The position numbers and the translations under genes were made by a program. The notes under the pieces were generated by a model, which was given only the letters and a program-made list of their open reading frames with translations, ran no database searches and was not told where the DNA came from. Positions 9,372 through 63,919 of a stretch of DNA of 64,000 nucleotides are shown one piece after another; within the stretch, counting starts at the first letter, position 1; every line of letters starts with the position of its first letter. Location: contig OZ025871.1 of NCBI GenBank assembly GCA_964019415.1, positions 10,212,256 to 10,276,255 on the forward strand, read 5' to 3'. The stretch comes from Ianthella basta. Lineage: Eukaryota > Porifera > Demospongiae > Verongiida > Ianthellidae.

Positions 9372-12300
9372 TTAATCAGTGTCAAACCCCCAACGGTTGG
9401 GTGGTCTACGTTGACGTGTAGAACGACGCGCTGGACGTTGACTTGACGCTGGTTCCGGGTCAGTGTCACTGTTCTCTGCAACTGTCGATGGCAGAGGATC
9501 AGGAGCAGTTGCACTGTCATTAGTACTGTCAGTCACTGGTGCAAACGGAAAAGAATCATCTACCCCAGGAACTTCTGCTGAGGCTGTACGTTCTCGCAGG
9601 TGATCGACATGTCTACGCACTGTGATGCCATTTCCCAATTTCACTGAATAGGAAACCGGACCACGAACCTGAACAACCACTCCAGGGAGCCACACCTGTC
9701 CCGGACGGAAATTGCGGGCATAAACAAGATCTTCTTCGTGGAACACACGCTCTTTGGCATGGCGATCGTGGTTTCCCTTCTGCTGCTCCTGGTGACTAGA
9801 TACCCTAGACCGGATGTCTGGGTGCAGCAGATCCAATGGAGATCTGAGTGGTCTTCCAAATAAAAGCTCTGCTGGCGACACTCCTGTTACAGACTGGGGT
9901 GTCAGGCGGTACATGAAAAGGAACCGTGCGAGACGCGTTTCCAATGAACCATCTGTAAGCTTCTTCATTCCCTCCTTAAAGGTTTGCACGGATCGTTCTG
10001 CTAACCCATTAGAGGCTGGATGGTACGGAGATGATGTCACATGGCGAATAGCATTACGCTTACAGAATTCCTCAAACTCGGTGCTGGTGAATGTGGTTCC
10101 ATTGTCAGTCACGAGAACCTCTGGTAAACCCAACATGGCGAAAGTACTACGCATCTTCTCGATGGTGACTTGCGAAGTAGCTGAGTTGGTCATGTGGATG
10201 TCCAACCACTTGGTATGCGCGTCTACCAAGATCAGGAACATTCTGCCCATGAAAGGTCCAGCGTAATCAGCATGGACTCTTGACCAAGGTCGTTGTGGCC
10301 ATTCCCAAGGGTGTAAAGGAGCAGGTTGAGGGTTGTGGCGTGTGGACTGGCAGGCTGTGCAGGATTTCACCATCTTCTCTATCTCTGCATCCAGACCTGG
10401 CCACCACACGTGCTGACGGGCAAGGCTCTTCATCCTTGATACCCCAGGGTGGGCTTCATGTAGCTCTAACATGACCTTCTCTCGGACTTGGGGAGGAACA
10501 ACAACTCTACCACCCCACAACAGGCAACCATCATGTAGGCTGAGCTCCTCTCTCCTTCTCCAATAGGGCTTCAACTCCTCCAGCTCCTGGTCCATCTGGT
10601 TTGGCCAACCATACTGTACGAAGCGTTTCACTTGGGCCAGAACTGGGTGACGGTCTGTCATTTGCCGGATTTGTGCTACGGAGACTGGCCCCATGGAAAG
10701 ATGTTCCATGAGCTGGATGGTCTCTGGTGGAGTAGGAACTTGGGATGGTGTCGTTGGCAAGGGCAACCGACTGAGGGCATCTGCGTTGCAGTGCTTCTCC
10801 CCTGCCTTGTACGCTATTTTGTAGTCGTACGCCCCAAGCAACAGTGCCCAACGCTGCAACCTGGCTGAAGCCATTGCAGGAGTGGCTTTGGATGGGCTCA
10901 AGAGATGCATCAATGGTCTATGATCTGACACAATGGTGAAGGAACGTCCATAGATGTACTGATGGAAGTGTTTAACACCAAAAATGATGGCCAGCGCCTC
11001 CTTGTCCAATTGTGAGTACTGTTTCTCCGCAGAAGCGAGTGTTCTAGAGGCGAACGCGATGGGCCTCTCAGATCCGTCATCCATTAGATGAGAAAGAACA
11101 GCTCCGACCCCGTATGGTGAAGCATCACATGCCAACAACAGTGGCTTGTTCCCATCAAAGTGGACGAGGAGGTTGGGAGAATCTATGAGTTCCTTTACCT
11201 GGTCTAAGGCTGCCTGCTGCTCACGTCCCCACTTCCATGGCATTCCCTGTTGCAAGAGTTGATGAAGAGGGGTGAGGATGGTAGCCACATCAGGCAGGAA
11301 CTTCCTGTAGTAGTTGACCAGACCAAGCAGGGATCTTAACTCGGTCAGGTTCTGGGGAGCAGGAGCATTGACAATGGCAGCCACCTTGCTGGCTGATGGC
11401 TCCAAGCCATCCGAGCTGATTCCGTGTCCCAGATACTCGACCCTTGGTAGCAGAAAGGCGCACTTCTCCTTCTTCAGCTTCATCCCGGAGGTCTCCAGTC
11501 GTTGCAAGACTGCACTGAGGTTGCAAAAATGTTCCTCATCAGATGTACCAGTGACCAGGATGTCGTCCAGGTAGGTACACACGCCAGGCAAACCTTGCAG
11601 CAATGTCTCCATTAGCCGCTGGAAGATAGCAGGGGCGGAGGCAACCCCAAAGGGCAAACGCTGGTAACGGAACAGGCCTCTGTGTGTGTTCACTGTGACG
11701 TACTGCTGAGATGTTTCCTCCAGGCGCACCTGAAGGTACGCATGAGATAAATCCAGCTTAGTGAAGGATTTCCCTCCGGCCAGAGATGCAAGGAGGTCTT
11801 CGATGCGTGGTAATGGATACACCTCCAGTTTCGCTGCTTTGTTCACTGTCAGCTTGTAGTCGCCGCAAATTCTGACTGTTCCGTCCCTCTTGACTACTGG
11901 CACAATTGGTGCAGCCCAATCAGAGAACTGGACTGGTGTGATGACTCCCTGCTTCTCCAACCTGTCTAGCTCTGCTTCAACCTTCTGCCGCAATGCGAAA
12001 GGTACAGAACGAGCTTTGTAAAAGGCTGGCTGGGCTTGTGCATCGACAAAGAGCTTGGCTTCTACTCCCTTGAGCATCCCAAGGCCTGGCTCGAACACCT
12101 TCTCATGCTGCCGCAAAATGGATTCCAACGTATGCTGCACAGTAATGGAAAGGATCTCCTTCCAGTCAAGGCGCAATTTTGTGAGCCAGTCACGACCCAG
12201 GAGACTTGGACCACTCCCTGCAACCACAAGAAGTGGCAGGTGAGCTTCTTGATCATTGGTTCCAGCAGTGACCAATATGGATCCAAGCACTGCGATCTCT

Positions 12301-13304
12301 TCTCCGGTGTAGGTACGAAGCTTGACTGCACTCTCTTGGAGGGCGGGGGCAGCACTGGCATTCCACAGAGACTTGAACGTGGCTTCACTGATCAAGGAGA
12401 GAGACGCACCTGTGTCGACTTCCATGTCTACCACCTTCCCATCTAGGGTCACAGCAGTCTTCAGTGGCGTGGATGGAGCATCCTGGTCCACCACTGGGTA
12501 CAGGGTGTACTCCTCAGGTGGAGAAGCTTCCTCCACTTTATGGGTCGGCAGACCCCGGCTCTTCCCTGGTGGGTTATCCTGCTTGGGCTTGCTCCGGCAC
12601 ATCCTCACGATATGCCCAACCTTGTTGCAACCCCTGCACCGCTCGGTCTTGAAACGGCAGTTTGCAGCAGTGTGCTTTCCACCACAGCGGTAGCAAGGTG
12701 GATGGGGTTTGGAAGGAGTGGGGGCGAAGTTGGCTCGGTGTCCTTGCAGCTTATGAACTGAGGTGGAGCTGGCTGTATCAGGCTGCAGATCCTTCAGATC
12801 TCTGGTAGCCAACTCCATAGCTTGGGCGATCTCCAAGGCCTTCGCAAAGGTCAAGGAACTTTCAGCAAGCAAACGGTGCTGAACACGCGAATCCGCGATT
12901 CCCCACACTAAACGATCCCTTAACATCTCATCTAGAGCACCCCCAAACTCACAAAACTCTGACAACTTCTTCAGCTCCGCTACGTAGGCAGCCACCGTTT
13001 CTCCCGACTGCCGCGTCCGCGAGTTGAACTTGAAGCGCTGGACCACCGCTGATGGTCGTGGGTTGTGGTACTTGTTGACTTTCTCCACGAGGTCTTCGAA
13101 CGAAAATTCGGTGGGCTTCTGCGGTGCCACCAAACTGCGGATGAGTACGTAAGTGGACGGACCACACACGCTCAGAAGAATCGCTCTCTTCTTGTCTCCA
13201 GCAGCCACGTCGTTGGCCGCGAAATAGTACTCTAACCGCTCGGCATATGCGGACCACTCTTCCACTTCCTGTCGAAATTCCCCGATGCTACCGTGCTTTG
13301 CCAT
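9372..13304 (-). CDS. Ty3/gypsy Gag-Pol polyprotein (single ORF)
   Basis: The frame is open from 13385, but I choose the ATG at 13302-13304 (MAKHGSIGEF), just after the primer-binding region, giving 1310 residues. Counting from the upstream frame start (subtract 27 for the chosen ATG), domains run in order: a Gag capsid-like region (30-200), two zinc knuckles (CX2CX3HX4C at 231-243 and CX2CX4HX4C at 250-263), an aspartic protease with DTGAS (324-328), reverse transcriptase with LPFG and YLDD (605-608), RNase H with DASPYGVGAVLSH, an integrase with an H-H-C-C zinc site (HEAHPG...CTAC), the catalytic core (HADYAG, VTDNGTTF, NGLAERSVQ), and a C-terminal GPV/Y-type module. No chromodomain is evident. 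Gag and Pol are in one frame with no frameshift. No stop or frame break is seen, so it may be mobile. Confidence 0.95.
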   Translation of the reverse strand: MAKHGSIGEFRQEVEEWSAYAERLEYYFAANDVAAGDKKRAILLSVCGPSTYVLIRSLVAPQKPTEFSFEDLVEKVNKYHNPRPSAVVQRFKFNSRTRQSGETVAAYVAELKKLSEFCEFGGALDEMLRDRLVWGIADSRVQHRLLAESSLTFAKALEIAQAMELATRDLKDLQPDTASSTSVHKLQGHRANFAPTPSKPHPPCYRCGGKHTAANCRFKTERCRGCNKVGHIVRMCRSKPKQDNPPGKSRGLPTHKVEEASPPEEYTLYPVVDQDAPSTPLKTAVTLDGKVVDMEVDTGASLSLISEATFKSLWNASAAPALQESAVKLRTYTGEEIAVLGSILVTAGTNDQEAHLPLLVVAGSGPSLLGRDWLTKLRLDWKEILSITVQHTLESILRQHEKVFEPGLGMLKGVEAKLFVDAQAQPAFYKARSVPFALRQKVEAELDRLEKQGVITPVQFSDWAAPIVPVVKRDGTVRICGDYKLTVNKAAKLEVYPLPRIEDLLASLAGGKSFTKLDLSHAYLQVRLEETSQQYVTVNTHRGLFRYQRLPFGVASAPAIFQRLMETLLQGLPGVCTYLDDILVTGTSDEEHFCNLSAVLQRLETSGMKLKKEKCAFLLPRVEYLGHGISSDGLEPSASKVAAIVNAPAPQNLTELRSLLGLVNYYRKFLPDVATILTPLHQLLQQGMPWKWGREQQAALDQVKELIDSPNLLVHFDGNKPLLLACDASPYGVGAVLSHLMDDGSERPIAFASRTLASAEKQYSQLDKEALAIIFGVKHFHQYIYGRSFTIVSDHRPLMHLLSPSKATPAMASARLQRWALLLGAYDYKIAYKAGEKHCNADALSRLPLPTTPSQVPTPPETIQLMEHLSMGPVSVAQIRQMTDRHPVLAQVKRFVQYGWPNQMDQELEELKPYWRRREELSLHDGCLLWGGRVVVPPQVREKVMLELHEAHPGVSRMKSLARQHVWWPGLDAEIEKMVKSCTACQSTRHNPQPAPLHPWEWPQRPWSRVHADYAGPFMGRMFLILVDAHTKWLDIHMTNSATSQVTIEKMRSTFAMLGLPEVLVTDNGTTFTSTEFEEFCKRNAIRHVTSSPYHPASNGLAERSVQTFKEGMKKLTDGSLETRLARFLFMYRLTPQSVTGVSPAELLFGRPLRSPLDLLHPDIRSRVSSHQEQQKGNHDRHAKERVFHEEDLVYARNFRPGQVWLPGVVVQVRGPVSYSVKLGNGITVRRHVDHLRERTASAEVPGVDDSFPFAPVTDSTNDSATAPDPLPSTVAENSDTDPEPASSQRPARRSTRQRRPPNRWGFDTD

Positions 13305-13333
13305 CGCTACTGGATCCCAGCTTCGTCGCCAAA

Positions 13334-13512
13334 TGTGATAACTGACCAGTTCATGCACATGCAAACACGATGCAACACGATTCAAGGACGCTCACCGCGT
13401 GGCAGGAGAACTCAATGAACAACAAGTTACACACAGGATCAAGAGGCATGCACACGTGCACCCTACATCACATGATGCATTAAATAATAACACATACAAG
13501 CAAGTCACTACA
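13334..13512 (-). repeat. 5' LTR of the Ty3/gypsy element
   Basis: This is the 179 bp repeat identical to 9158-9336. It should carry the element's promoter on the minus strand. The gag-pol reading frame stays open from 13385, inside this LTR, although the likely start is at 13304. Confidence 0.95.
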
Positions 13513-15229: not shown

Positions 15230-17350
<2,121 letters not shown>

Positions 17351-18278: not shown

Positions 18279-21200
18279 ATGAAATCGATTTATTGCCCTT
18301 TTGGTCTTTTTCAAGCACTCGTCTGGTGTACGGTTGCGGAAGGCGCTCTCTACAGGACAGTTGCCATCGGTGGAGCAGGTGGCAGAACCTTTGACGATCT
18401 ATCTGCCTTGGGCAATGTGACCGATTTCCGTCTACGGCAAGTCCTCATTTGGCAAAACTGTGCGCAAGAAGGAGGCATTTGTAGCGATAGAATTAGCGGT
18501 GTGGTCGGGTTTCAAACTGTGTACAGTGTGTGGGCAGATAGCACTTGCACCGAGTCGGTTGAAAAGACTGTTGTGGTAAACTTTCAGGATGTTAACGCCA
18601 CGTCTGCCATTGTTCTTGAGCACGGAGACTTCATTGAAAAGATGTACGGATATATCGCCATGTTCTCACCGAACGGAAGAATCTATGTACTCGATGGCAT
18701 AGGTTTTGTTATTACTAGACGCGGAGCATCTGGAGTGAGGGAGGAGATATTTGTAGGCAAGAATACGAGCAGCAACAGGTACATTGAAGTGCTCGGTCCA
18801 TTGGTAGCCTTTTGGGGAAATATTGGAGAAGCTTTTGATCAGCTTGGTGCCTACATTGACCCATCAGTGTGGCCAGAACGACCCTCCCGCATTGTGGCAC
18901 GAGAGATGTATGGAGCAGTCCTTGGACGTGAAACTGACGTTTACTTCAATAGTGTTGCTACAAGCACAAAGTATTATGCCGTAAGATTGCTCGACATCAC
19001 TGTCTATTCAACTAGCACCCGCATTACGGGAATTGCGGCTACATTCCAAAATGACCTCCGCGAAACTGTAATGTGGAATGTTGGAACAGACAATGCTTAC
19101 ACTCATCAGTCAAACATATCTGCATCCAACGGGTCAGTTAGCATCGGAGCTATTCGTATTCCTATTATTGAGGATCTATCTGGTAAGTGGCCATATCCTA
19201 TGTTTTTGGGATCTAGTAGACGTTCAAAAGGAGGTAGAGCGCATGAGAGTGCATTATGATGATTGCATGCAGAGATAAAATGAGTATCTTTGTACAGCAC
19301 TGCTTCCAAGAGAGCACTAGAAAGTTTTTTGGGCTTTAAAACACTTTTACTGTGCTGAGAACTAAGGATTTCAGTCTTTATGCACATGCACCCAAAGGGA
19401 TAATTGACTGGTTTTCTCACCTCAACTAACCTTCCTGCAATTTAGGGCAACAGCATGTAGTTGAATCTCTTAGGAGTTTCATGAGTTTAATTTTGAAATA
19501 TGTAGGGAAGGATCAAGTGGTTGACTACAAAAACATGTATATCAGAGTCACACTTGTGACATCTATTTAGAAATGTGCCCTGTTCAAAATGGTGTCCCCT
19601 ATCTTAATGTATTAGTGCGCTTCGGCGAAACTAGCCGAACCGCGGCAAAGAAGAACAATTGAAGGCCATGGATAAGCTTTTATCAAAGGGTTAAGAACCG
19701 CAATGTACCCAAAGTGTAACCTGGTATACATGTAAGAAGAAAGCGTCGCATGTCGCTGTCACCCCATTTTGTCTTAATTTTCACATTTTTTTATTCTTAT
19801 TCTTCTCCCCACTGAATTTTGCGTGCTCCTAGCACAAGACACAGGCACCTATGGACTTAAGTCACGTACCAGGACTCGCATATGTACCTGTAGGGTGAAG
19901 ATCTGAGCGCTGGTGGCAATCCAACTCATACAGCGTTGAAGCGAACGCGAAGTTTGTTGCTCCCATGTATTAAACATACCCCAATGCCACCATTTTGTTG
20001 TGCTGGCATACCGTACGGTACACGGCCGCTGCTTTATCTAAAGTGGCTTAACTGTGCTCGATGCTCTACACAATCTTCAGCTAATTTAAGGAAGGGTTAT
20101 TAGTCAGCACTGGTCTCAATCTGATGTAACTGTATAGTGATGTGCAGAAACTGTACAAACTAGTGTTTAAAAATTCTTGATTTTATGCTGGCTATTCCTA
20201 AATCCCCATTAATTCTAAAGTAATTTTTATACACTAGTAGATATATAGATTCAGATACTGTATATATTCTAGGCATCTTTATCAACAGCTGTACCAAACA
20301 TTGTGCAGGTTTAATTTTCACATGTTAGCCAGTGCTGCTTCTTTAAAATGGTGTATTTTATTTGATTAAACATAACTGTACTATATACTAGTGTATAAAT
20401 ACTCCTTTAGAATTAAAAGGGATTTAGGAATGGCCAGCAGAAAAAGCATAGAAACAAGCAGCAGTAACTCAACGCCATGATGAAACAAATTGCCGTGAAG
20501 TTTGCTATGCATTCCTAATTTCCTTGTAGCTACATGGGACTAGCTAGCTAGTCCCATGTAGCTATACAAGGAAACTAGGAATGCATAGCAAACTTCACGG
20601 CAATTTGTTTCATCATGGTGTTGAGTTACTGTTGCTTGTTGCTTGACCGGAACTGGTCGTGATTTTACAGTTCTCTTAGTGGGCTGGAGCACATGTTTCA
20701 GAAAATCGGGCCATGAGATTGGTATAAGTCTGTTTAACCCCTGTGCTGTCTGTTCACTTATCCTGGAGGTGTTTTCTGTTGGCACCAAAAACTCCCTACC
20801 ATTGTCAGCCTTAAATCATCCGAATGCGCTTTAGACTGGCCTGTCTTGTTCCAATCGCTGCTGTTTGAACTGGAGTTGTAGCAACCATTATGACATCACC
20901 AAACCAATAACCGATGCTAATATCCAGTTTGGGACAATCAACCATAAAAGTACTGTAACGACACTCATGGTCATTAGGGTGTTGTTGCATGGATTCAGCA
21001 TATAGCTACAATGCATGCCAAAGGATGGCATTGTGGATACATATTATAATAGATTACTGTAATTGTGATGATAATTGTAGTTCACTAGCTTTCACACATA
21101 ATACTAAGCTTTTATAATGTAGCTGCAGCTGATGCCCAAACATTTGCATCAAATCGACTATAATATTATATTTGAATAAATTCTTACTGCTTACCTGCAT

Positions 21201-24200
21201 GCTTGCTCATGACACTATTGACTTAAAGCAGGGTTTTAATTGTGATGGTACGTCCAATTGACACTCAAATGCTCTTAATAATCATTACAGTTGATTGCCT
21301 GAGTGGGTTCGCTATTCAGCTAGTCTTCTCAGATGGTCGACCGCCTGAGGACATGGTCTTTGGAAGCAATGCCACAGTCTACAACATAACAGAGAAACAG
21401 ATTGTTGGGTTTCATGGCCTGCTTGCGCCCAATGCTAACTGTATCAGACGTCTTGGTATTCTCATGCAAATGGATAGCAGTGAGCTAAAAGGTGAGTCAC
21501 TAATTCTGAAAGCAGCAGATGCCATGCAAGCATGATGATATTGAATTAAACTTCATTTCTCATGATCATCTGGTAGATCAATAAAATTTGCCTTCCTGAC
21601 TGCATTAATTCTTCTATGAAATTCTTTTGGATTCAGAAGTCTTTCTTTCATTTCTTTCCTGCATGGGACTTCTGAAGTGGAAGCTAGAGTACAAGCGACA
21701 TCTTAAGTAGTATAAAACTATTGGTAACTTTTAAACTCAGTACTATTATTATCTGTGTTTGTTGTTGTTAGAACGACCCCCAGACTTGTGGACAAACATT
21801 CCTTATGATGACAATGATGATGATGATGATTCTTTCAGATTCCATGAGGGTCATCAGTAGCAAGTTGAAGTGCCACAAAAGGTGCCCTCCTTACCGCCGC
21901 AGCACATCTGGTCACTTGACTTCTACTTGGGCGAAGAAAGGGAGTCCACAATGGATACAAAATCAGGCCATCATCCAGGTTCATCATTGCATGGTCTTAA
22001 GCTTCTTTGCTGGATCTCAAGGGCTTCAAGAACCCTTCTTCTTCCCCAGTTGTCCTCCCTCACAAGGATCCTTTCTTCTTGCCAGTTGATGGTTTGTGCA
22101 GTCTTTTGGGCATGCATAGCAATTCCATTCGTGGGATTCATGTTCTTCACTGCCCTTCATTGTCTGCCCAAGTAGAATAAGTCACATGACCGGAAATGCT
22201 GTGGTGGGAAGTCCAAACCTTATATTAGGAGGGCACCTTTTGTGGCACTTCAACTTGCTGATGATCAAATCAGGGTCAAAACATTCAAGATGAATTACTC
22301 GAGCTCGCTTCAACAGACTACTTACTAATGCTCCTGAATCCGAACAAATTGTCACATCATCACTGAAGTATGTCAACATGTAGCACAACACTGTCACTTA
22401 TAATTAAAGAACAGATCTAGGGGTGTAATTGTAAAAACAACTCCTGATCCAGGTGCTCAACTTGTGTAGTTGATTAGGCCTACTAAAGGCAGGCACTCTA
22501 CACAAGTAGCAACAGTGAGTGACGTGAGAGCTGCCACAGTTACTTCTGGTTTCATGAATACTGATAAGTTAACCTGCTTTGTCTCAGCACATTCACCTAC
22601 CAGGTTCATAAGCATTAGCAACTTTGTCATGCGGCTTTCCTGTACAGAGTATGTAGGCAGAAACAAGTTTTTCGAGTTAAAAAACTCGTACGTGGGGCGC
22701 TGGGTGCCCCTGAACTCAAACTACTTGCTAGCAATTTCCCCATTTATGTTCAATAAATGAGATAGTTGGGGGTACAGATACATCAAGATACATTAGACTG
22801 TTGAGTTTGCAAGAGTTTCAAGTCTCCAGAGCAGCCAATCATCCAGTGAAAGCACCCCTACTACACCCCTCGCCATTTTCAAATTATGCAATTAAACCAG
22901 ATGAAACAGGAGTGACTGGTGCCACTGTTAGCAGCTTCATCAGTTAGCTTGTGCACCGTTTATAGGACTTTCGCAGTTGTGCACTTCTCCTCCACGGTTG
23001 GCTTCTGGTCGCCGTTTCTCGCTGGGCTATTAGTGCAGAACCTAGGTGCTAGCCCACACCTTGAGTTCTAGGATTACAGAAATGAGGTATAATGCCTGCA
23101 CCTATGCCCTATGGTTGAGACTAAGTGTGTTACTTCAGCTTAGCTGCATGCCCACTATAAAGGTACAGAAACTAGAAATGATGAAAATTGTCTACAAAAA
23201 TTGTAAGGATGCAGGGATGGCATAAAAAGGACAGAAACAAGTAAAGGCTGTTACACATTGGAGCATTAACCATCGTGCCAACAATTAAAGGATGTAGGAC
23301 TATATAAGGTGCAACATTCTTGCATGTAGGGACCATGGTTAATGCTCCACTGTGTAACAGCCTTTACTTGTTTCTATCCTTTTTATGCCATCCCTACATC
23401 CATACAATTTTTGTGGATTATTTGATTTCTAGTATATAGCTGCATGGGGATGGTGGGGATTATGTACACATGACAGAGTGTCACTCCTGCTGCCCTTCTG
23501 CAGTGTGGAATGTACATGCACAAAAAATTGTATGCCTTCCCTTCCACAGACACCTGTAAAGTGCCCAGTCTGAGTAGACTTGCAGACAATGTCATTCTTG
23601 TTCTGGACACTGACCTGCCTGAGAGGATATTGAATGGCACAGAGTTGAAGTTTGGCTGTAGAGAGGGATTTGGTCTGGTTAAAGGAGGAGTGCTCACATG
23701 TGGAGATGATGGAATTTGGCAAGGAGAACTTCCAGAGTGTGCATGTAAGCGGACACTGAATGCACCTTATCAAACAATCTATAGGAATCCCATTATTTAG
23801 CATAATTATGCTGCCAATATTTATATTGGCCATTGCATATATTATGATGAGTATCTAAGGTTGAACCAAGCAATATATGGCATTGTATGGCAGAGAAATG
23901 CAGATGGACTGAGAAAACTGGCATTCAAGTAGCTTTGTGCTGGCTGTTTTGAAGTAATGTACACTACGTTGAAAACCGAGTGAAGGCCTAGAGATACAAG
24001 CTACGTTTAATTATATAAATTTAATATGTCATATAGAGTGAACAAGCTTTCAATGATCTTACACCAATAATTCTATTTGATGGCTGATTGAAGTACACAT
24101 TTTGAAAGTATATAACTTGTAACTGCTGCAATATACTTCCAGTCACCTGACCAAGAATTGCAGCCTTGCGCAGAAATAGAAGTTTGTGCGCAACATAATA

Positions 24201-25162
24201 TGTTATAATATTATAATATTATAGCTATTCTTATTCAGTAGATAGTATTGTTAACAGTTAAGTTGGGTACAAAGAGGGTTATTGGGTGGGTACATGTTGA
24301 GTTACAGATGGCATAGCTGCATGGGGTGGGTCCTTGGGGATAAGTAAGACTTAGTACATATATATATATGTATATAGAAACATTTGTACACACAGCAACG
24401 TGTCACTCCTGCTGCCTTTTTGCAAAGTGGAATGTACGTGTACAAATAATTCTATGCCTTCTCTCCGTCAGACACATGTGAAGTGCCCAGTCTATATCTA
24501 ATTTATGAGCATGCATGCACGCATAATTTGCAGTGGCTGTACAAATGACAAGATCTTGAGCCCATGCATGCCATTATTATCCAGTGATGCACTATTGTCT
24601 TTGCAATTGAGTCCAGTTAATTAAAGTGTGTATAATAATATTATAGCTTTTTTATATCATATACTCTTAATTTAATATTTAGTATTATTAATTCTATTCA
24701 CTCTCACGGCATCATCTACAGTCTCCAGAAATAATCCTACTTTGGATGGTTTGGCAGCAATCATTGTACTTGCCATTTTGGTGTTGCTTACACTTGGCAC
24801 TCTGACTGTTGTTGTTGTACTAATCCTAAGTATGAGGATCAAGAAGTACAAAGGTGAGTGTGCATGCTGTAAAGTGTCACAGTGCATAGTACAACATGTG
24901 AAGCTAATTATAACCATTCTAAATTGCTCATTAATTCTATGCTGCATGCATGGTAATGTTCTGTTTGTCACAATGTGACATGCAACCTTAAATTTCATTT
25001 CTCGTTGCATCTATAATAGCTGCAAATGTAGGGCAGTGTGACGAAAGACTATGCGTTGAGATGGAAGAGAATAACAGAGAGGAGGCTGACTATGAAGACG
25101 TGACCCATATCGGACAGGGCTTTGAAATGACAAAGAATCCAGCATACTTGGCAGTGAATTAA
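18279..25162 (+). CDS. Jacalin-like lectin / sushi single-pass receptor, JSR1
   Basis: Coding exons read as 18279-19182, 21291-21491, 23550-23744, 24722-24853 and 25020-25162 (TAA). They join in one frame giving 524 residues, and every junction is phase 1. Start: MKS at 18279 begins a clear signal peptide (about 1-23, core GLFQALVWCTVA). Residues 25-194 resemble a jacalin-like lectin domain: GGAGG near the start, HGDFIEKMYGYI, and GEAFDQLGAYI with the GXXXD motif (183-187). Residues 205-365, split by an intron, look like a second, divergent jacalin-like domain ending IVGFHGLLAPNANCIRRLGIL, with the motif Asp replaced. Sushi/CCP domain 369-433 (CKVP...FGC...GVLTCGDDGIWQGELPEC). Membrane segment about 444-469, then basic RIKKYK. 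The acidic tail has YEDV (502-505) and NPAYLAV (517-523). Likely a cell-surface glycan-binding receptor; ligand and signalling are inferred. Confidence 0.78.
19183..20456. other. JSR1 intron 1, left part
   Basis: The first ~350 bp (to about 19540) match the start of the JSR2 intron (54403-54735). The rest is AT-rich with no gene. The match resumes in JSR2 at about 56775, beyond a hAT-like insertion. Confidence 0.6.
20457..20637. repeat. Large palindrome, about 180 bp
   Basis: The two arms (about 88 bp each) are near-perfect inverted copies meeting at ACTAGCTAGCTAGT (20539-20552). They share AACTCAACGCCATGATGAAAC and TTGCCGTGAAGTTTGCTATG with single changes. JSR2 keeps only the right arm (from about 59692), next to its LINE insertion, and a diverged relative lies at 27155-27300. 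Confidence 0.9.
21849..22265. mobile_element. MITE with long TIRs in JSR1 intron 2
   Basis: The ends are inverted copies (ATCAGTAGCAAGTTGAAGTG at left, its near complement CACTTCAACTTGCTGATGAT at right), and the arms extend inward through CCCAAGTAGAA/TTCTACTTGGG. The counterpart in JSR2 is at 61885-62277, so it was inserted before the genes duplicated. The frames over it are not conserved coding. Confidence 0.75.
22655..22715. repeat. Pair of small hairpins conserved in both JSR genes
   Basis: GAGTTAAAAAACTC (22675-22688) and GGGGCGCTGGGTGCCCC (22694-22710) are inverted repeats. The same pair is at about 62660-62695 in JSR2 with compensating changes (GGGGCGCCGGGCGCCCC). Confidence 0.6.
22870..23435 (+). 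mobile_element. Element B, copy 2 (5' truncated)
   Basis: It matches 60700-61275 from CCATTTTCAAA onward, including the GAGTTCTAGGATTACAG block (23061-23077) and the terminal foldback (23165-23435) ending in GATTTCTAG. It is absent at the matching place in JSR2, so it was inserted after the duplication. Confidence 0.7.
24466..24505 (+). pseudogene. Relic of a second sushi exon in JSR1
   Basis: ACACATGTGAAGTGCCCAGTC (from 24471) matches the first codons of the sushi exon at 23550 and then loses similarity. About 70 bp of upstream intron (CACTCCTGCTGCC..TGGAATGTAC) is also duplicated from 23486. This reads as a tandem copy of the sushi exon truncated after roughly eight codons. JSR2 keeps a full second sushi exon. 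Confidence 0.7.
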
Positions 25163-27300: not shown

Positions 27301-27407
27301 AGGTGATCAACAAATTCAGATTTAGTAAAGGCGAAACAGGCTTATGTGACTACAACATGCATGCAGTGTATGTATTTTTACCTGTTTGTGTGGTGAGCTT
27401 GTGCATG

Positions 27408-28345
<938 letters not shown>

Positions 28346-53501: not shown

Positions 53502-56500
53502 ATGAAATCGATTGGTTGCCTTTTTGGTCTTTTTCAAGCACTCGTCTGGTGTACGGTTGCGGAAGGCGCTCTGTACAAGACAGTTGCCATCGGTGGACCA
53601 GGCGGCGAAACCTTTGACGATCTGTCTACTTTGGGCAATGTGACGGATTTCCATCTACGACAGGTCCTCACCTGGCAAAATTGTGCGCAAGAAGGGGGCA
53701 TTTGTAGCGATAGGATTGGCGGTGTGGTTGGGTTTCAAACTGTGTACAGTGTGCTCGAAGATAACACGTTTAACGTGTTGGTTGGAAAGAGTGTTGTGAC
53801 AAACTTTCAGGATGTTGGCGCCACGTCTGCAATTGTTCTTGAGCACGGAGACTTCATTGAAAAGATGTACGGATATATCACCATGTTCCCACCGAACGGA
53901 AGAATCTATGTACTGGATGGCGTAGGTTTTGTTATTACTAGACGTGGAGCATCTAGAGAGAGGGAGGAGATATTTGTAGGCAAGAATACGAGCAGCAACA
54001 GGTACATTGAAGTGCTCGGTCCATTGGTAGCCTTTTGGGGAAGTGTTGGAGATGCTTTCGATCAGCTTGGTGCCTACATTGATCCGTCAGTGTGGCCTGA
54101 ACGCCCATCCCGTATTGTGGCACGAGAGATGTATGGAGTGCACTTTGGGGACATAAGTGACATTTACTTTAGTAGTGTTGCTGCAAGCTCAAATTATTAT
54201 GCAGTAAGATTGCTTGACATCACTGTCTATTCAACTAGCACCCACATTACAGGGATTGCAGCCACATTCCAAAATGACCTCCGTGAAACTGTAATGTGGA
54301 ATGTTGGGACAGACAATGCTTATACTTATCAGTCAAACATATCTGTATTGAATGGGTCAGTGAGCATCGGAGCTATTCGTATTCCAATTGAGGATAGATC
54401 TGGTAAGTGGCCATATGCTATATGTTTGAGATCTAGTAGAGGTTCAAAGGGAGGTAGAGCACACTTGAGTGCATTATGATAATCATTGCATGCGGAGATA
54501 AAATGGGTATATTTGTACAGTTCTGCTTCCAAGAGAGCACCAGAAAGATTTTGGGGGCTTGAAACACTTCTACTGTGCTGAGAGCAAAGGATTTCCGTCT
54601 TTATGCACATGCACCCAAATGGACCGGATAATTGTAGTTTTATCACCTCAACTAACCTTCCTGCAATTTAGGGCAACAGCATGTAGTTGAATCTCTTAGG
54701 AGTTACATCAATTTAATTTTGAAACATGTAGTACAAGCTCGAGATTAAGAAAAATTAATGTTGAAAAGTTGATTGTGTGTTAATATAATATGCAAGCATA
54801 TGTCTCATCAATTAGTATCCTAACTAGAGTTGCACCGATATAGATTTTTACCGATTATCCGATTTCTGATTTTTAAGTGCCGATACCGATCAGATATTCC
54901 GATTTTTGCATCACAGTGTGTACCTTGGTTTCTTTGATCTATTGCCTGAAGCCCTGGTCCTCAGCCACAGAGAACGGCTGACAATCGAGTGCAATCATCT
55001 CACCAGTTCTCCCGTGAATACGCTGTGTGCGCACATCACTAATACAGCTTAGCCTACAGATTCATATGCCATCTCCGCTTTCAGGCTTGAAGCGATATTA
55101 GCCAGAAAGGCGCTGGACTACTTGATAAAGTCGATGCATTCTGCACCTCAACCATTTTGTTGAAACTCTCTGTGTAGTTGAGCGTTCTTGTCCTTCAGAT
55201 GCTGCACCAAATTCGTATAATCGGTCCATAATATTACTCGTGCACGCAATTCCTACCGCTGCGCGGATTCCTTCTTGTTGCAGGACTGGCACACTACGAA
55301 GTTGAGGTCCTCGTCGACAGCGAGGTAGTCCCATGCTGGTGAATCTTTCTTCCTGGCGATTCTATGCGCGCCGCAGACCCAGAACAAACTAACGGTAAAC
55401 GCTGCAACAACGTAACCACTCGACATAACACTTTACTCGTAAACGTCACGTGCTGGAGGTGACATAATCGCGATCACGGCCGTTTCGCTATGGCAGCTTA
55501 GTTTAAATGGCCGCAGATTGGGAATCGGAATTGTGTGAACATCACACAGCAAATATGTGTGCTCACAGTGGCAACCTATCGACACCAATTATGGGTGTAA
55601 TCATCACTCCCTATTTTAACAGTGTACCGAGAAACTTTCCCATGTGCATGCCAGCATTGCATCAAATTTGTACCTTTTCAAGGATCATGTTGTACTGTGG
55701 ATGAGGAGGTGGCACTGGGCATTGAGGCTCCACAGTGAGCAAGGGGCAGAGTCAGTACACAATATTCTCAACACTTTAGAGAGAACATACTGTGCAATGC
55801 ATAATCCACTGGAAGGCATGAAGCAAACTTCGGCATTGACAGCTCAACTGCATGCAGCCATCAATATAGAAAAAGAAGGAATAACGGAACAATCTCTTAG
55901 CACATACATAACATACTGAACTTATATATGTTTGTTATATACTTATTTGCAGATTATGTAATACACCTAGACTTATTTAAAGCTTATGCTTAGACTAGTA
56001 GTTACTGGGAAAAAGTATGCAATTAATCTATGAGCAAGCATGTAGCTAGCTAGCTTACACTATACTGTATAGTCAAAGCATTGCAGATCCAATTTAGCAA
56101 AGGTAAAGCAAAACCTGCAATACAGAGACATTCTCAATTCACTGAGACTTAGTCACACTAGCTGGGATCGTGGGGAAGTGCATTATGTAGTCACCTAGCT
56201 AGCTACCCTATACACATGCTGTGTTATGTGACTATTTTATTTTCGCTCAAAACATGAAGTAAGAAAATGGCTCAAGAATAAGCTCTCCTTTGCTATGTTG
56301 TAGAGTGGTTGGGCTATCATGACATGCATCGCATGTAGGTAGGAAAACCCGGAGAAACGCACAACGAGCCGTTTAATACGAGCAAATGTTTGCCAAAATA
56401 TCGCTAACATAACAGCATAAACAACGCTTTTATCCTTTACAGCACATTATCCACTGTTATGCTCACCTTGATACGGAGTTTCCTATGGATTGCATCCTCT

Positions 56501-59500: not shown

Positions 59501-62500
59501 ACCGAGGGGGGGACCCCGAAAGAGATGGCGCAAGAATTTTTCTATTACTGATGAATGACTCAATGACTGTATATTACATAACTATATATACTATATATGT
59601 CTTTTATATTCCATGTCGCTATATACTGAACTTGTCTGTTTTGGCTATACCTCCTGCTAAGGAGATAAAGCCGTGAAGATTCATGAAGATTAATAGCGAA
59701 CTTCACGGCAATTTGGTTCATGATGGTGTTGAGTTACTGTTGCTTGTTGCTTGACTGGAACTGGTTGTGATTTTACAGTTCTCTTAGTGGGCTGCATGGA
59801 GCACACGTTTCAGAAAATTGTTAACTGCATGAGATTGGTACTAGTCTATTTAACCCTTGTGCTGTCTGTTCACCTATCCTGGAACCAAAAGCTCCCTACC
59901 ATCCTCAGCCTTAATTATATATAAATTGTCCGTATGCACTTTAGACTGGTCTGTCTTGTTCCAATCGCCACTGTTTGAACTGAAGTTGTAGCCACCATTA
60001 TGACATCACCAAGCTGATAACCGATGCAAATATCCAGTTTGGGACAACCGACACTAAAAGTACTGTATATAGGCTGAACTGACAGTCATGGTCATCAGGG
60101 TGTTGTTGCATGGATGCAGCATACGTAGCTGCAATGTATGCCAAAGGAGGACATTGTAGGTACGTATAAAATAGATTACTGTAATTGTGTTTATAATTGT
60201 GGTTCACTAGCTTTCACACTTAAATCTAAGCTTCTATTGCAGCTGCAGCTAATGCTCAAGCATTTGCATCAAATTGACTATAATCAGACAGCACGGTAGT
60301 GCTGTCTATGTAGGGATGGCAGTGGTTGTTTGTATGCTGTAATACAAACGAAAAGTCACGCTACTCCTGAAGAGGATCGAAAACCGGCAAATGAAACTTA
60401 CCATGACAAAGCGGGGACTGAACAGTGCACATAACTAACCTTACTTCCCAGTGAAGGTGCGCCTACATGTAGAGAGCACCCTCGACATTACCCATGTACC
60501 ATTACCGTCTTCTTCTTCTTCTTCTTCTTCTTTTTCTTCTTCTTCTTCTTCTTCTCTGACAGCTGTAGCGCACAAACCAGAGGGACCAGGAGGATACCTC
60601 TTGCACCCTATTGCATCAATTTTGGCTGGCTGCATTCCTTTGTAGGTTAGAAGGCGGCGCGAGTTAGTGCGGAAGACAGCGCTTGCCACAACTCCTGCCA
60701 TTTTCAAACTACGTAATTAAACCGGATGAAACCGGAGTGACTGGTGCCATTGTTAGCAACTGCAGCAGTTAGATTGTGCGCCGTTTGAAGGACTTTTGCA
60801 GTAGTGTGTGCATTTCCCCTCCATGGTTGGCTTCCGATCGCCGTTTCTCGCGCATGGGTTAGCGTGGAACCTAGGTGCTAGCCCACACCTTGAGCTCCAG
60901 GATTATAGAAATGAGGTATAATGCCTGCACCAATGCCCTATGGTTGAGACTAAGTGTCTTGCTTCAGCTTAGCTGCCCACTAAAGAAAGTACAGAAACTA
61001 GAAATAATAAAAATTTTCTACAAGAATTGTAAGGATGTAGGGATGGCATAAAGAGGACAGCAACAAGTAAAGGCTACATGTTATATTACACAGTGGAGCA
61101 TTAACCATCATCCCTACATTCAAGGATGTAGGACTATATGGTGCAACATTCTTGCATGTAGGGGCCATGGTTAATGCTCCACCGTGTAACAGCCTTTACT
61201 TGTTTCTGTCCGTTTTATGCCATCCCTATATACATCCTTACAATTTTTGTAGAAAATTATTATTATTTCTAGTATTATGTATGATTATAACTGCTCACCT
61301 GCATGCTTGCTCCTGACACTGTTGACTTAAGCAGGGTTTTGTGATTGTACGACCAATTGACACTCAAATGCTCTATTAAATCATTACAGTTAATTGCCTG
61401 AGTGGGTTCGCTATTCAGCTAGTCTTCTCAGATAGTAGACCGCCTGAGGACATGGTCTTTGGAAGCAATGCCACAGTCTACAACATAACAGAGAGACATA
61501 TTGTTGGGTTTCATGGCCTGCTTGCGCCCAATGATAACTGTATCAGACGTCTTGGTATTTACATGCAAATGGATAGCAGTGAGCTAAAAGGTGAGTCACT
61601 AATTGTAAAAGCAGCAGATCCCATGCAAGCATGATGATATGGAATTAAACTTCATTTCTCATCATCGCCTTGTAGATCAATAAAATTTGCCTACCTGACT
61701 GATTCTTCTATGAAATTATTTTGGATTCAGAATTCTTTCTTTCATTTCTTTCTGGGAAAGACCCAGGAAGAGATGGCGAGATGAATTCTGAATGGAAGCT
61801 AGAGTACAGGCAATACCTTGAGTAGTATAGAACTATTGGTAACCTGTTCCTTTTATTATCCATGCATGATGATGACGATTCTTTCAGATTCCATGAAGGT
61901 CATCGCTGCCCTCCTTACCGCTGCAGCACTTCTGGTCACTTGACTTCTAGTTGGGGCAAAGAAAGGGAGTTCACGATGGATCCAAAATTAGGCCATCATC
62001 CAGGTTCATCATTGTATGGTCTTAAGCTTCTTTGCTGGAACCCTTCTTCTTCCCCAGTTGTCCTCCTTTGCAAGGATCTTTGCTTCTTGCCAGTTGATGA
62101 CTTGTGCAGTCTTTTGAGCATGCATGGCAATTCCATTTTTGAGGTCCATGTTCTTCACTGCCCTCCATTCTTTGCCCAAGTAGAATAAGTGACATGATCA
62201 GAATTGCTGTGGCGGGAAGTCCAAACCCTATATAATGAGGGCACCTTTTGTGGCACTTCAACTTACTGATGATGCCCCTCAGGGTCAAAACATTCAAGAT
62301 GAATTACTTGAGCTCGCTTCAACAGATTACTTATACTAATGCTCCTGAATCCGAACAAATTGTCACATCATCACTGCAGTGTGTCAACATGTAGCACAAC
62401 ACTGTCACTTAATGAATAGATCTAGTGTAATTGTAAAAACAACTCCTGCATGATCTAGGTGCTCAACTTGTAGGCAGGCACTTCAACACAAGTGGCAGCA

Positions 62501-63919
62501 GAGAGTGTTGTGAGAGCAGCCGCAGTTACTTCTGGTTTCATGAATACTGATAAGTGCATAAGTTAACCTGCTTTGTCTCAGTACATTCACCTGCCAGGCT
62601 CATAAATGTTACCCACTTTGTCATGTAACAGTGTATGTACGTAGTCAGAAACAAGTATTTCGAGTTAAAGAACTCGTGGGGCGCCGGGCGCCCCTGAACT
62701 CGAACTACTTGCTAACAATTCCCTATGTATGTTCAATAAATCAGATAGTTGGGGGTACAGCATTGAAGATGGCCCAAAAGATACATCAAGATACAATAGA
62801 TTGTTGTGTTTGCAAGATTTTCAAGTCTCCAGAGCAGCCAGTCATCCTGTGAAAACACCCCTATACCAAACTGTCAAAATGTTGGCATGCAGACTGCATT
62901 GTCATCTATAATAATTATTCATTTCATTTCCCCTGCAGACACCTGTAAAGTCCCCAGTCTGAGTAGACTTGCAGACAATGTCACTCTTGCTCTGGATGCT
63001 GACCTGCCTGAGAGGATACTGAATGGCACAGAGTTGAAGTTTGGCTGTATTGAGGGATTAGCTCTAGTTAAAGGAGGAGTGCTGACATGTGGAGATGATG
63101 GAATATGGCAAGGAGACCTTCCAGAGTGTGCTCGTAAGTGAACACTGAATGCAATTAGTTTAATAGTCTATAGGAATCTCCAATAATTATTACAAATCAA
63201 GGCACTTGCTTCACTCATTAATTTTACCAAAGTTCAGGAGTAGATATAAGTGATCAATGCCAAGGATATACACACCTGTGAAGAGAAAATTTGATGAGTT
63301 GCTGGATGGGTTGGTTACCATGCATGCATGGTCTCCTGTACATGGCCCAATAATGTAATGTCAAGTGTACAAGCTTTCATATGCGAATGATTGCATTTGA
63401 TGGATGATTGACGTCCATGCATACATGCATGTTGAATTCGAAGGTGCATAGCAATTTCCTTACTCAATAGATAGTGACATTAAGGGTTGGCTGGGGAGGG
63501 TAGGAAGATAGTCATTAATTATGGTGGGGGCATGTTAATTTAGAGATATATAGTACTATATGCTGGAGAGGGCATGCATTGGAATATATATATAAGTAGG
63601 CGGAAACTTTGATATTCCAGTCGTACACTGACAAGACGTCATGCCTGCAGTGTGGAATGTGCATAATCAATTAATTCTAAATTCATTTTATAATTATTAG
63701 GTATGTCTTAATTCTTTACTTCAGACACCTGTAAAGTGCCCGGTCTGAGTAGACTCGGAGACAATGCCACTCTTGTTCTGGACACTGACCTGCCTGAGAG
63801 GATACTGAATGGCACAGTGTTGAAGTTTGGCTGTAGTGAGGGGTTAGCTCTGGTTAAAGGAGGAGTGCTGACATGTGGAGATGATGGAATATGGCACGGA
63901 GACCTTCCAGAGTGTGCCC
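53502..63919 (+). CDS. Jacalin-like lectin / sushi receptor, JSR2 (3' partial)
   Basis: Exons read as 53502-54402, 61390-61590, 62939-63133 and 63725-63919, joining in one frame with all junctions phase 1. The gene continues past the window; membrane and tail exons are not yet reached. The start MKS at 53502 opens a signal peptide almost identical to that of JSR1. The first jacalin-like domain keeps GDAFD (GXXXD) and HGDFIEKMYGYI. The second, split by a 7 kb intron, ends IVGFHGLLAPNDNCIRRLGI. Two sushi exons of 195 bp each follow (CKVPSLSRL...GDDGIWQGDLPEC and CKVPGLSRL...GDDGIWHGDLPEC). Compared with JSR1, most of the protein is nearly identical, but residues about 84-106 (YSVLEDNTFNVLVGKSVV against YSVWADSTCTESVEKTVV) and about 212-232 differ strongly. 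Intron 1 carries hAT-like, LINE and B insertions missing from JSR1. Confidence 0.78.
54825..56718. mobile_element. hAT-like DNA transposon, 1.9 kb, in JSR2 intron 1
   Basis: The 8 bp duplicates ATCCTAAC (54817-54824 and 56719-56726) flank an element beginning TAGAGTTGCACCGAT and ending ATTGTTACAACTTTA, which are inverted relatives of each other. Subterminal CCGATA/TATCGG repeats occur at both ends (54836-54900, 56640-56700). JSR1 has an empty site at the matching place. A frame at 55644-55919 (SEQGAESVHNILNTLERTY) may be a decayed protein fragment, but no complete transposase is present. Confidence 0.75.
57067..59560 (+). mobile_element. Decayed non-LTR retrotransposon (LINE), 5' truncated
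   Basis: Frames in order on the + strand: 57076-57555, the C-terminal half of an APE-type endonuclease (VQAYAPMDD, QIDYFLV, GSDHHLVLMKL); 57696-58055, a linker; 58122-58439, the start of reverse transcriptase (KAPG...NYRGISFLS); 58526-59164, the RT core (DLEKAYDKV, GVRQGCVLSPWLFNVY, LLFADDIIV); 59216-59398, a C-terminal piece (VPTLLYGCETW). In-frame stops at 57553, 57673, 58053, 58437 and 59162, and a 19-base G run (58479-58497), break it. Motif style resembles RTE-like elements, but the clade is uncertain. It is absent from JSR1 intron 1. Confidence 0.9.
58479..58497. repeat. Poly-G run inside the LINE
   Basis: An uninterrupted run of about 19 G between RT frame pieces. It may be replication slippage or an assembly artefact. 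Confidence 0.85.
59690..60284. other. JSR2 intron 1 segment homologous to 20600-21165 of JSR1
   Basis: CGAACTTCACGGCAATTTGG through CATTTGCATCAAATTGACTATAAT matches JSR1 intron 1 in order. Only one arm of the JSR1 palindrome is retained. No gene. Confidence 0.8.
60286..61275 (+). mobile_element. Element B, copy 3 (most complete)
   Basis: It begins with the hairpin AGACAGCAC-GGTA-GTGCTGTCT (60286-60307) and TAGGGATGGCAG. It holds a (TTC)n tract (60510-60555), the GAGCTCCAGGATTATAG block (60892-60908), and the terminal foldback (61000-61275) ending TTATTATTTCTAG. JSR1 has an uninterrupted sequence at the matching place (around 21165), which supplies an empty site. Confidence 0.75.
61885..62277. 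mobile_element. MITE, JSR2 copy
   Basis: It is the counterpart of 21849-22265. The left terminal repeat has lost about 28 bp (GTCATCGCTGCCC directly), while the right end (GGCACTTCAACTTACTGATGATG) is kept. Confidence 0.7.
62655..62700. repeat. Small hairpin pair, JSR2 copy
   Basis: GAGTTAAAGAACTC and GGGGCGCCGGGCGCCCC match the pair at 22675-22710 of JSR1, with base-pair-preserving differences in the second stem. Confidence 0.6.

Follow-up and report, generated by a model that had tools for sequence, protein, structure and literature searches.

The 64,000-nucleotide stretch of DNA analyzed here (the window) comes from the sponge Ianthella basta (assembly GCA_964019415.1, 209 Mb in 96 contigs) and covers positions 10,212,256 to 10,276,255 of contig OZ025871.1, which is C4 in our numbering of contigs. 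Its forward strand carries a gene, gene 1, for a receptor-like protein with a jacalin-like head, a sushi domain, one membrane segment, and a short cytoplasmic tail containing NPAY. Related genes follow gene 1 on C4, and further relatives lie on other contigs, in part close to adhesion G protein–coupled receptor (GPCR) exons.

Results

Structure of gene 1

An earlier reading of the window, made from the sequence alone (the sequence-only reading), had assembled a 524-residue frame from five exons, and our reconstruction reproduced that frame exactly. The exons (Table 1) have GT-AG borders throughout, all four introns are in phase 1, and the spliced frame of 1575 nt encodes 524 amino acids plus a stop. 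The proposed order of signal peptide, two jacalin-like domains, sushi domain, membrane segment, and tail also held, with Pfam, hydropathy, and paralogs in agreement and the signal peptide (residues 1–23) judged by eye. Because the same exon order recurs in genes 2 and 3, just downstream, and in gene 4, the exon order of gene 1 is not a product of chance.

Searching Pfam with the 524-residue protein placed the sushi domain at residues 398–432 (28.1 bits against a curated cut-off of 20.7), with the four cysteines and the tryptophan present. The best sequence match of the protein in the PDB was complement receptor type 2 (E 2.5e-8, residues 397–435); the likeness to this and other CCP proteins is limited to the sushi domain, whereas gene 1 has a jacalin-like head. 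We found one membrane segment only, where the mean hydropathy over 19 residues reaches its maximum of 2.98 (residues 447–465), followed by the basic sequence RIKKYK. Pfam gave no match to GPS, 7tm_2, or SRCR in the protein.

Table 1. Features of gene 1 and of the part of gene 2 inside the window, numbered from the first base of the window.
Feature	Position	Strand	Basis
Gene 1, exon 1: signal peptide, jacalin-like domain 1 (D1), first part of jacalin-like domain 2 (D2)	18279..19182	+	sequence, Pfam, paralogs
D1, residues 24–199, with GG loop at residues 31–35	18348..18875	+	Pfam Jacalin
GXXXD sugar-site motif, G183-E-A-F-D187	18825..18839	+	nine-copy alignment; motif role as described in PMC4059138
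Gene 1, exon 2: C-terminal part of D2	21291..21491	+	Pfam on copies, D1–D2 profile alignment
Gene 1, exon 3: sushi (CCP) domain, symmetrical phase 1-1 exon	23550..23744	+	Pfam Sushi
Relic sushi exon (a second copy) with adjoining 5' intron border, within intron 3	24385..24493	+	82.6% identity over 109 bp to 23463–23571
Gene 1, exon 4: transmembrane segment and basic stop-transfer residues	24722..24853	+	hydropathy, paralog exons
Gene 1, exon 5: cytoplasmic tail including stop	25020..25162	+	splicing model, paralog tails
YEDV motif, variable among paralogs	25091..25102	+	paralog tails
NPAY motif, kept in five of six cluster genes	25136..25147	+	paralog tails, genome-wide pattern
Gene 2, exon 1, 85% protein identity to gene 1 exon 1	53502..54402	+	genome search, exon comparison
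Gene 2, exon 2	61390..61590	+	exon comparison
Gene 2, sushi exon 1 of 15	62939..63133	+	exon comparison
Gene 2, sushi exon 2 of 15	63725..63919	+	exon comparison

The jacalin-like head

With the whole gene 1 protein as query, the Pfam Jacalin model matched residues 30–192 at 22.8 bits, over its curated cut-off of 22. To compare D1 and D2 among copies, we used nine of the 13 exon 1 loci, excluding genes 5 and 6, in which the exon is interrupted, and two loci on C16; the start of exon 2 is uncertain in two distant copies among the nine (C1 near 13.73 Mb and C19). D1 is 167–180 amino acids long in these copies, seven of which match Jacalin at E ≤ 1. D2 (residues 200–368) is split by intron 1 and finished by exon 2. 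The Jacalin model gave no match to D2 of gene 1 itself; six of the nine D2 copies match it at E ≤ 10, the best at 4.6e-7. Alignment of the D1 and D2 profiles extended over 136 columns (E 1e-5, probability 82%) and scored 39.5, as against 19.6 for the best of 60 column permutations and 9.8 for the reversed profile. The sole match of the D2 profile in the PDB was nitrile-specifier protein 1 (E 0.75). We conclude that the head probably comprises two jacalin-like domains, as had been proposed, with D1 assigned through Pfam and D2, which needs exon 2, through the profile comparison and the matches of paralogs.

In jacalin-related lectins, a GXXXD motif and a GG loop are described as forming the mannose site (PMC4059138). 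D1 keeps both elements: the two glycines at residues 31–32 are invariant in the nine copies, D187 is present in all nine, and G183 is present in eight. No GXXXD occurs in D2 in the nine-copy alignment. Differences in D1 among five close copies peak near residues 54–73, 82–107, 128–147, and 158–167, and positions 36–37, which adjoin the GG loop, are also among the most different. D1 thus resembles the jacalin-related lectins, including animal ZG16p, in its Pfam match, GG loop, and GXXXD motif; ZG16p, however, is described as a soluble lectin (PMC4059138), whereas here two such domains sit on a membrane receptor. A search with exon 1 against phages gave no match, and neither the 53 pattern matches of the D1 alignment in GTDB contigs nor the 11 in IMG/VR were confirmed.

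The cytoplasmic tail

The tails of genes 1, 2, 4, 5, and 6 contain NPAY (five of the six cluster genes), that of gene 6 ending right after it. A YxxV motif is found only in genes 1, 4, and 5; at its place gene 2 has YDDA and gene 6 HECV, and gene 3 has no tyrosine there. Given five of six tails for NPAY and three of six for YxxV, the conserved tail signal is NPAY and not YEDV. The sequence-only reading had pointed to YEDV and NPAYLAV together; both are present in gene 1, and NPAY is the part that carries over to the family, YEDV being poorly conserved. IRS-type phosphotyrosine-binding (PTB) domains prefer hydrophobic residues at positions −6 and −8. In the cluster, position −8 before the NPAY tyrosine is F in genes 1 and 2 and I in genes 4, 5, and 6, and position −6 is M in all of these but gene 2, which has L, so that with NPAY these tails resemble ligands of IRS-type PTB domains. 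According to PMC3507883, PTB domains for the most part recognize NPXY or NPXpY, and an NPApY peptide was the ligand in the solved structure of the IRS-1 PTB domain.

To locate this signature across the genome, we used a DNA pattern that encodes MxxNPAY and extends two bases into the following codon, with the reversed pattern as control. The pattern matched 86 times and the control not at all. Fifty-two matches lie at C1:930238–1848684, 20 elsewhere on C1 (12 of them at C1:13928702–14327646), five in the C4 cluster, and nine on other contigs. The 86 matches are not a gene count, because at least one (on C15) spans an in-frame stop, one belongs to the relic in gene 3, and five are packed into 0.75 kb near C1:8.31 Mb. 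Gene 2 escapes the pattern because leucine replaces the methionine. With one C1 tail as query, a protein search gave 113 locations at E ≤ 1, all outside the C4 cluster.

The C1 matches possibly mark a big receptor array. One NPAY-tail gene there, which we examined, has on one strand an I-set domain over the Pfam cut-off, a second I-set below it, an fn3 domain over it, a membrane exon, and the NPAY tail. Its tail is tyrosine-rich, and C1 tails of this Ig-fn3 type have additional tyrosine motifs. When C4 tails were compared with C1 tails, none of 40 shuffles reached the real score for genes 4 and 5, while three, seven, and two of 40 did so for genes 1, 2, and 6, respectively; with NPAY masked, scores fell to between −0.8 and 2.9 bits. 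The comparison is suggestive of homology beyond the motif for genes 4 and 5 only. Because shuffles reach the scores of genes 1, 2, and 6, and because scores drop on masking, we claim for the C4 and C1 tails a shared signature alone.

The gene family

A genome search with the gene 1 protein returned 64 exon-level matches. Six copies form the C4 cluster, all in one direction over ~117 kb, and they differ in the number of sushi exons: one in gene 1, 15 in gene 2, three each in genes 3 and 4, and two each in genes 5 and 6. Exons 1–3 of genes 2 and 3 share 78–92% protein identity with those of gene 1, exon by exon. The remaining 13 sushi exons, the membrane exon, and the tail of gene 2 lie beyond the window, and all 15 of its sushi exons are open. 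Most of these belong to a 2.15-kb tandem unit carrying two sushi exons (C4:10277617–10290776). Six compared copies of the unit are 97.0–99.7% identical; it is likely recent and perhaps variable in copy number. Sushi exons are 195 bp long in the 19 aligned from genes 1–3 and are of phase 1-1, so that gain or loss of copies leaves the reading frame intact. Modules of class 1-1 are described as the usual material of exon shuffling in animals (PMC8001218).

Ratios of nonsynonymous to synonymous substitution rates (dN/dS) were computed with an NG86 script as point estimates without a significance test. The ratio is below 1 in all seven pairs both for exon 1 (0.33–0.86) and for the first sushi exon (0.13–0.37). 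For exon 2 it is 0.18–0.63 in the four pairs other than those among genes 1–3.

Two distant paralogs extend the family. For the copy on C1 near 13.73 Mb, Pfam names no domain in the frames, so its assignment to the family depends on a match to the window protein (E 6.4e-30); it includes a membrane exon, and its tail carries NPLF. The copy on C19 matches Pfam Jacalin and Sushi; neither a membrane exon nor a tail was found with it. Known intracellular domains were not found in the stretches examined downstream of the two paralogs.

The same ectodomain near adhesion-GPCR exons

On one strand of C18, within ~13 kb, a jacalin-like exon 1 (at 1861408) is followed by exon 2, two sushi exons, an EGF-like exon whose acceptor is in phase 1, and then HRM, GPS, and 7tm_2. 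HRM scores 24.1 bits, below its cut-off of 26.2; GPS and 7tm_2 are over theirs. C1 has two tandem copies in which HRM, over the cut-off (29.0 and 26.9 bits), lies at most 1 kb after sushi. The second of these is followed by a GAIN-like stretch recognized by eye; no GPS or 7tm match was found after it in the three plus-strand frames, and 5,000 downstream bases read N, which hides the 3' side of this copy. In a tree, the C18 head groups with that of gene 4 (support 100/99) and is 84% identical to it, while gene 4 and gene 1 share only 65%. Because the C18 copy has a stop at codon 2 and its exon 1 has a dN/dS of 0.86 against gene 4, it may be decayed or may use another first exon. From the exon arrangement, close copies of the jacalin-like head appear to be joined to an adhesion-GPCR chassis, possibly as single genes.

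These relatives share the ectodomain of the window gene, the one on C18 upstream of HRM, GPS, and 7tm_2 and the two on C1 upstream of HRM; the window gene differs from sponge adhesion GPCRs in having one membrane span and no GPS. For the 40 adhesion GPCRs of Amphimedon, the words jacalin, sushi, and lectin are absent from the available main text of PMC4302439, figures aside.

Further GPS matches occur around the C18 locus (C18:1861408–1875000). Arrays of 7tm_2 also occur on other contigs, with dozens among the matches listed at C12:4781447–5038004 and C8:1.76–3.49 Mb. Most of those on C12 lie in open frames of more than 650 amino acids and may therefore be intronless there.

Surroundings in the window and the mitochondrial contig

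SAMHD1-like stretches flank gene 1 at 3677–4039 (E 4e-12) and 35208–35579 (E 1.5e-9), and 39758–40114 looks SAMHD1-like by eye only; Pfam gave no match in any of the three. An unbroken Ty3/gypsy-like retrotransposon frame of 1339 amino acids, with protease, reverse transcriptase, RNase H, and integrase matches, occupies 9375–13391 on the minus strand. Intron 1 of gene 2 holds pieces resembling a long interspersed nuclear element by eye (57052–59161), with a reverse transcriptase match at 58463–59161 (E 4e-31). Intron 1 of gene 1 contains an inverted repeat at 20450–20643 (79-nt arms, 95% complementary, 36 nt between them), perhaps a small mobile element. Long CA/TG dinucleotide runs lie at 15231–15679, 16432–16628, and 27406–27598. 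The mitochondrial contig (C96, 21,233 bp) has a cox1 with nine TGA codons that is open under code 4, and it encodes a 78-residue protein named atp9-like by eye. Among animals, a mitochondrial atp9 is indicative of sponges. A silicatein-type pattern, used as another sponge marker, had no match, a negative of little weight given that introns or sequence variants would defeat such a pattern.

Discussion

Our sequence comparisons argue for a family of proteins whose N-terminus holds two jacalin-like domains (presumably of the beta-prism I type), followed by one to 15 sushi domains, a single membrane span, and a short tail with conserved NPAY. We favor the view, to which we assign a probability of about one half, that these are sponge type I membrane receptors in which a lectin head on a sushi stalk is coupled to an NPAY tail for uptake or signaling through a PTB adaptor. 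D1, in which both the GG loop and the GXXXD of mannose-type jacalin-related lectins are kept, would bind glycans carried by microbes, by food particles, or by cell surfaces; D2, without GXXXD, may play a structural role or bind another ligand; and the number of sushi domains would set the reach of the head. NPAY, with its hydrophobic residues at −6 and −8, would recruit a PTB adaptor, leading to clathrin-type uptake or phagocytosis, and its tyrosine, if phosphorylated, could lead to signaling. We infer that the product of gene 1 is a putative endocytic or phagocytic lectin receptor. Receptors of the low-density lipoprotein (LDL) receptor type offer a parallel at the level of the motif, in that they combine one membrane span with NPxY in a short tail; their ectodomain is a different one.

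Several observations weigh against this interpretation. The score of D1 is borderline, and D1 alone reaches 21.5 bits against the Pfam cut-off of 22. The best PDB matches of the D1 profile are two unrelated chains of metal regulators (E 0.006 and 0.008), and jacalin-type lectins come after them (best E 0.07). AlphaFold2, run on only two window sequences, yielded a model too poor to judge the fold by, with a pLDDT (predicted local distance difference test) of 30. Only genes 1, 2, and 4 of the six are unbroken in the exons read, and the last-exon borders of genes 2 and 4 are not settled; exon 1 is interrupted in genes 5 and 6, and the gene 3 tail has a stop just before NPAY. Exon 2 shows no constraint among genes 1–3, with a dN/dS of 0.94–2.07 (three pairs, with 1 to 4 synonymous changes). 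Finally, endocytic signals of the LDL-receptor type have an aromatic residue at −2 before the N (FxNPxY); the five NPAY tails have T or S in place of this F.

A serious rival in a sponge is that these proteins serve cell adhesion or self/non-self recognition, the head binding sponge-surface or aggregation-factor glycans and the tail anchoring the receptor or signaling contact rather than uptake. The Geodia cydonium aggregation receptor, likewise a sponge membrane receptor, is described as combining SRCR domains with short consensus (sushi) repeats (PMC4557014). The tandem growth of the family and the probably recent 2.15-kb sushi unit, with its 97.0–99.7% identity, would fit variable recognition; the same tail signature is also present on an Ig-fn3 receptor in a possible array. 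Gene 1, however, has a jacalin-like head in place of SRCR, which Pfam does not find in its protein, and NPAY is by general knowledge more an uptake or PTB motif than an anchor; we regard this alternative as somewhat unlikely. The tail might also act mainly in phosphotyrosine signaling, as a kinase substrate that docks IRS/Dok-like PTB and SH2 proteins, with uptake secondary. The hydrophobic residues at −6 and −8 in genes 1, 2, 4, 5, and 6 and the further tyrosine motifs in the Ig-fn3-type tails of C1 are in line with this, as is the binding of the IRS-1 PTB domain to NPApY (PMC3507883), but YxxV is kept in only three of the six cluster tails, and we consider a primarily signaling tail unlikely.

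The broken genes 3, 5, and 6, the early stop (codon 2) in the C18 copy, and the relic sushi exon in intron 3 of gene 1 would all be expected of a decaying, lineage-specific array of little function whose lectin domain no longer binds sugar. Exon 1 and the sushi exon nonetheless have dN/dS below 1, genes 1, 2, and 4 are without in-frame stops in the exons read, and D1 keeps GXXXD, which makes decay highly improbable as an account of the family.

The favored picture of a lectin receptor for uptake or signaling concerns the C4 family; the other loci lead to a broader and more tentative proposal. Phase-1 exon shuffling may have transferred one lectin ectodomain between two chassis, a single-pass receptor with NPAY and an adhesion GPCR, and the short NPAY signature would serve a much larger number of receptors with other ectodomains; together this would amount to a combinatorial receptor toolkit near the base of the animals. 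We put forward this proposal as somewhat more likely to fail than to hold.

The domain order of gene 1 is apparently undescribed. That no named family has this order, as the sequence-only reading had stated, agrees with the open-licence literature that we searched: neither jacalin, sponge, and sushi together nor jacalin with adhesion GPCR was found there, and jacalin, sushi, and transmembrane together returned only off-topic titles. What had been seen as a single gene is, by our analysis, a multigene family with a variable sushi stalk, whose ectodomain is also present at adhesion-GPCR-like loci. In the available text of a review of 39 sponge lectins, jacalin is mentioned once, in the reference list. 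Among sponge immune receptors, sushi genes are described that also encode SRCR, fn3, or Ig domains, and genes of lectin-like type are described as responsive to microbial molecules (PMC6208332).

To separate food, symbionts, and self, sponges have innate receptors alone. For glycan-guided uptake, a jacalin-type lectin anchored in the membrane and bearing a conserved NPAY tail is a concrete, testable candidate. If adhesion GPCRs do use the same head, the two would be a natural pair for testing what the lectin head contributes to each chassis. The more interesting lead is this wider pattern, with one head shared by two chassis and a single tail signature by many different heads.

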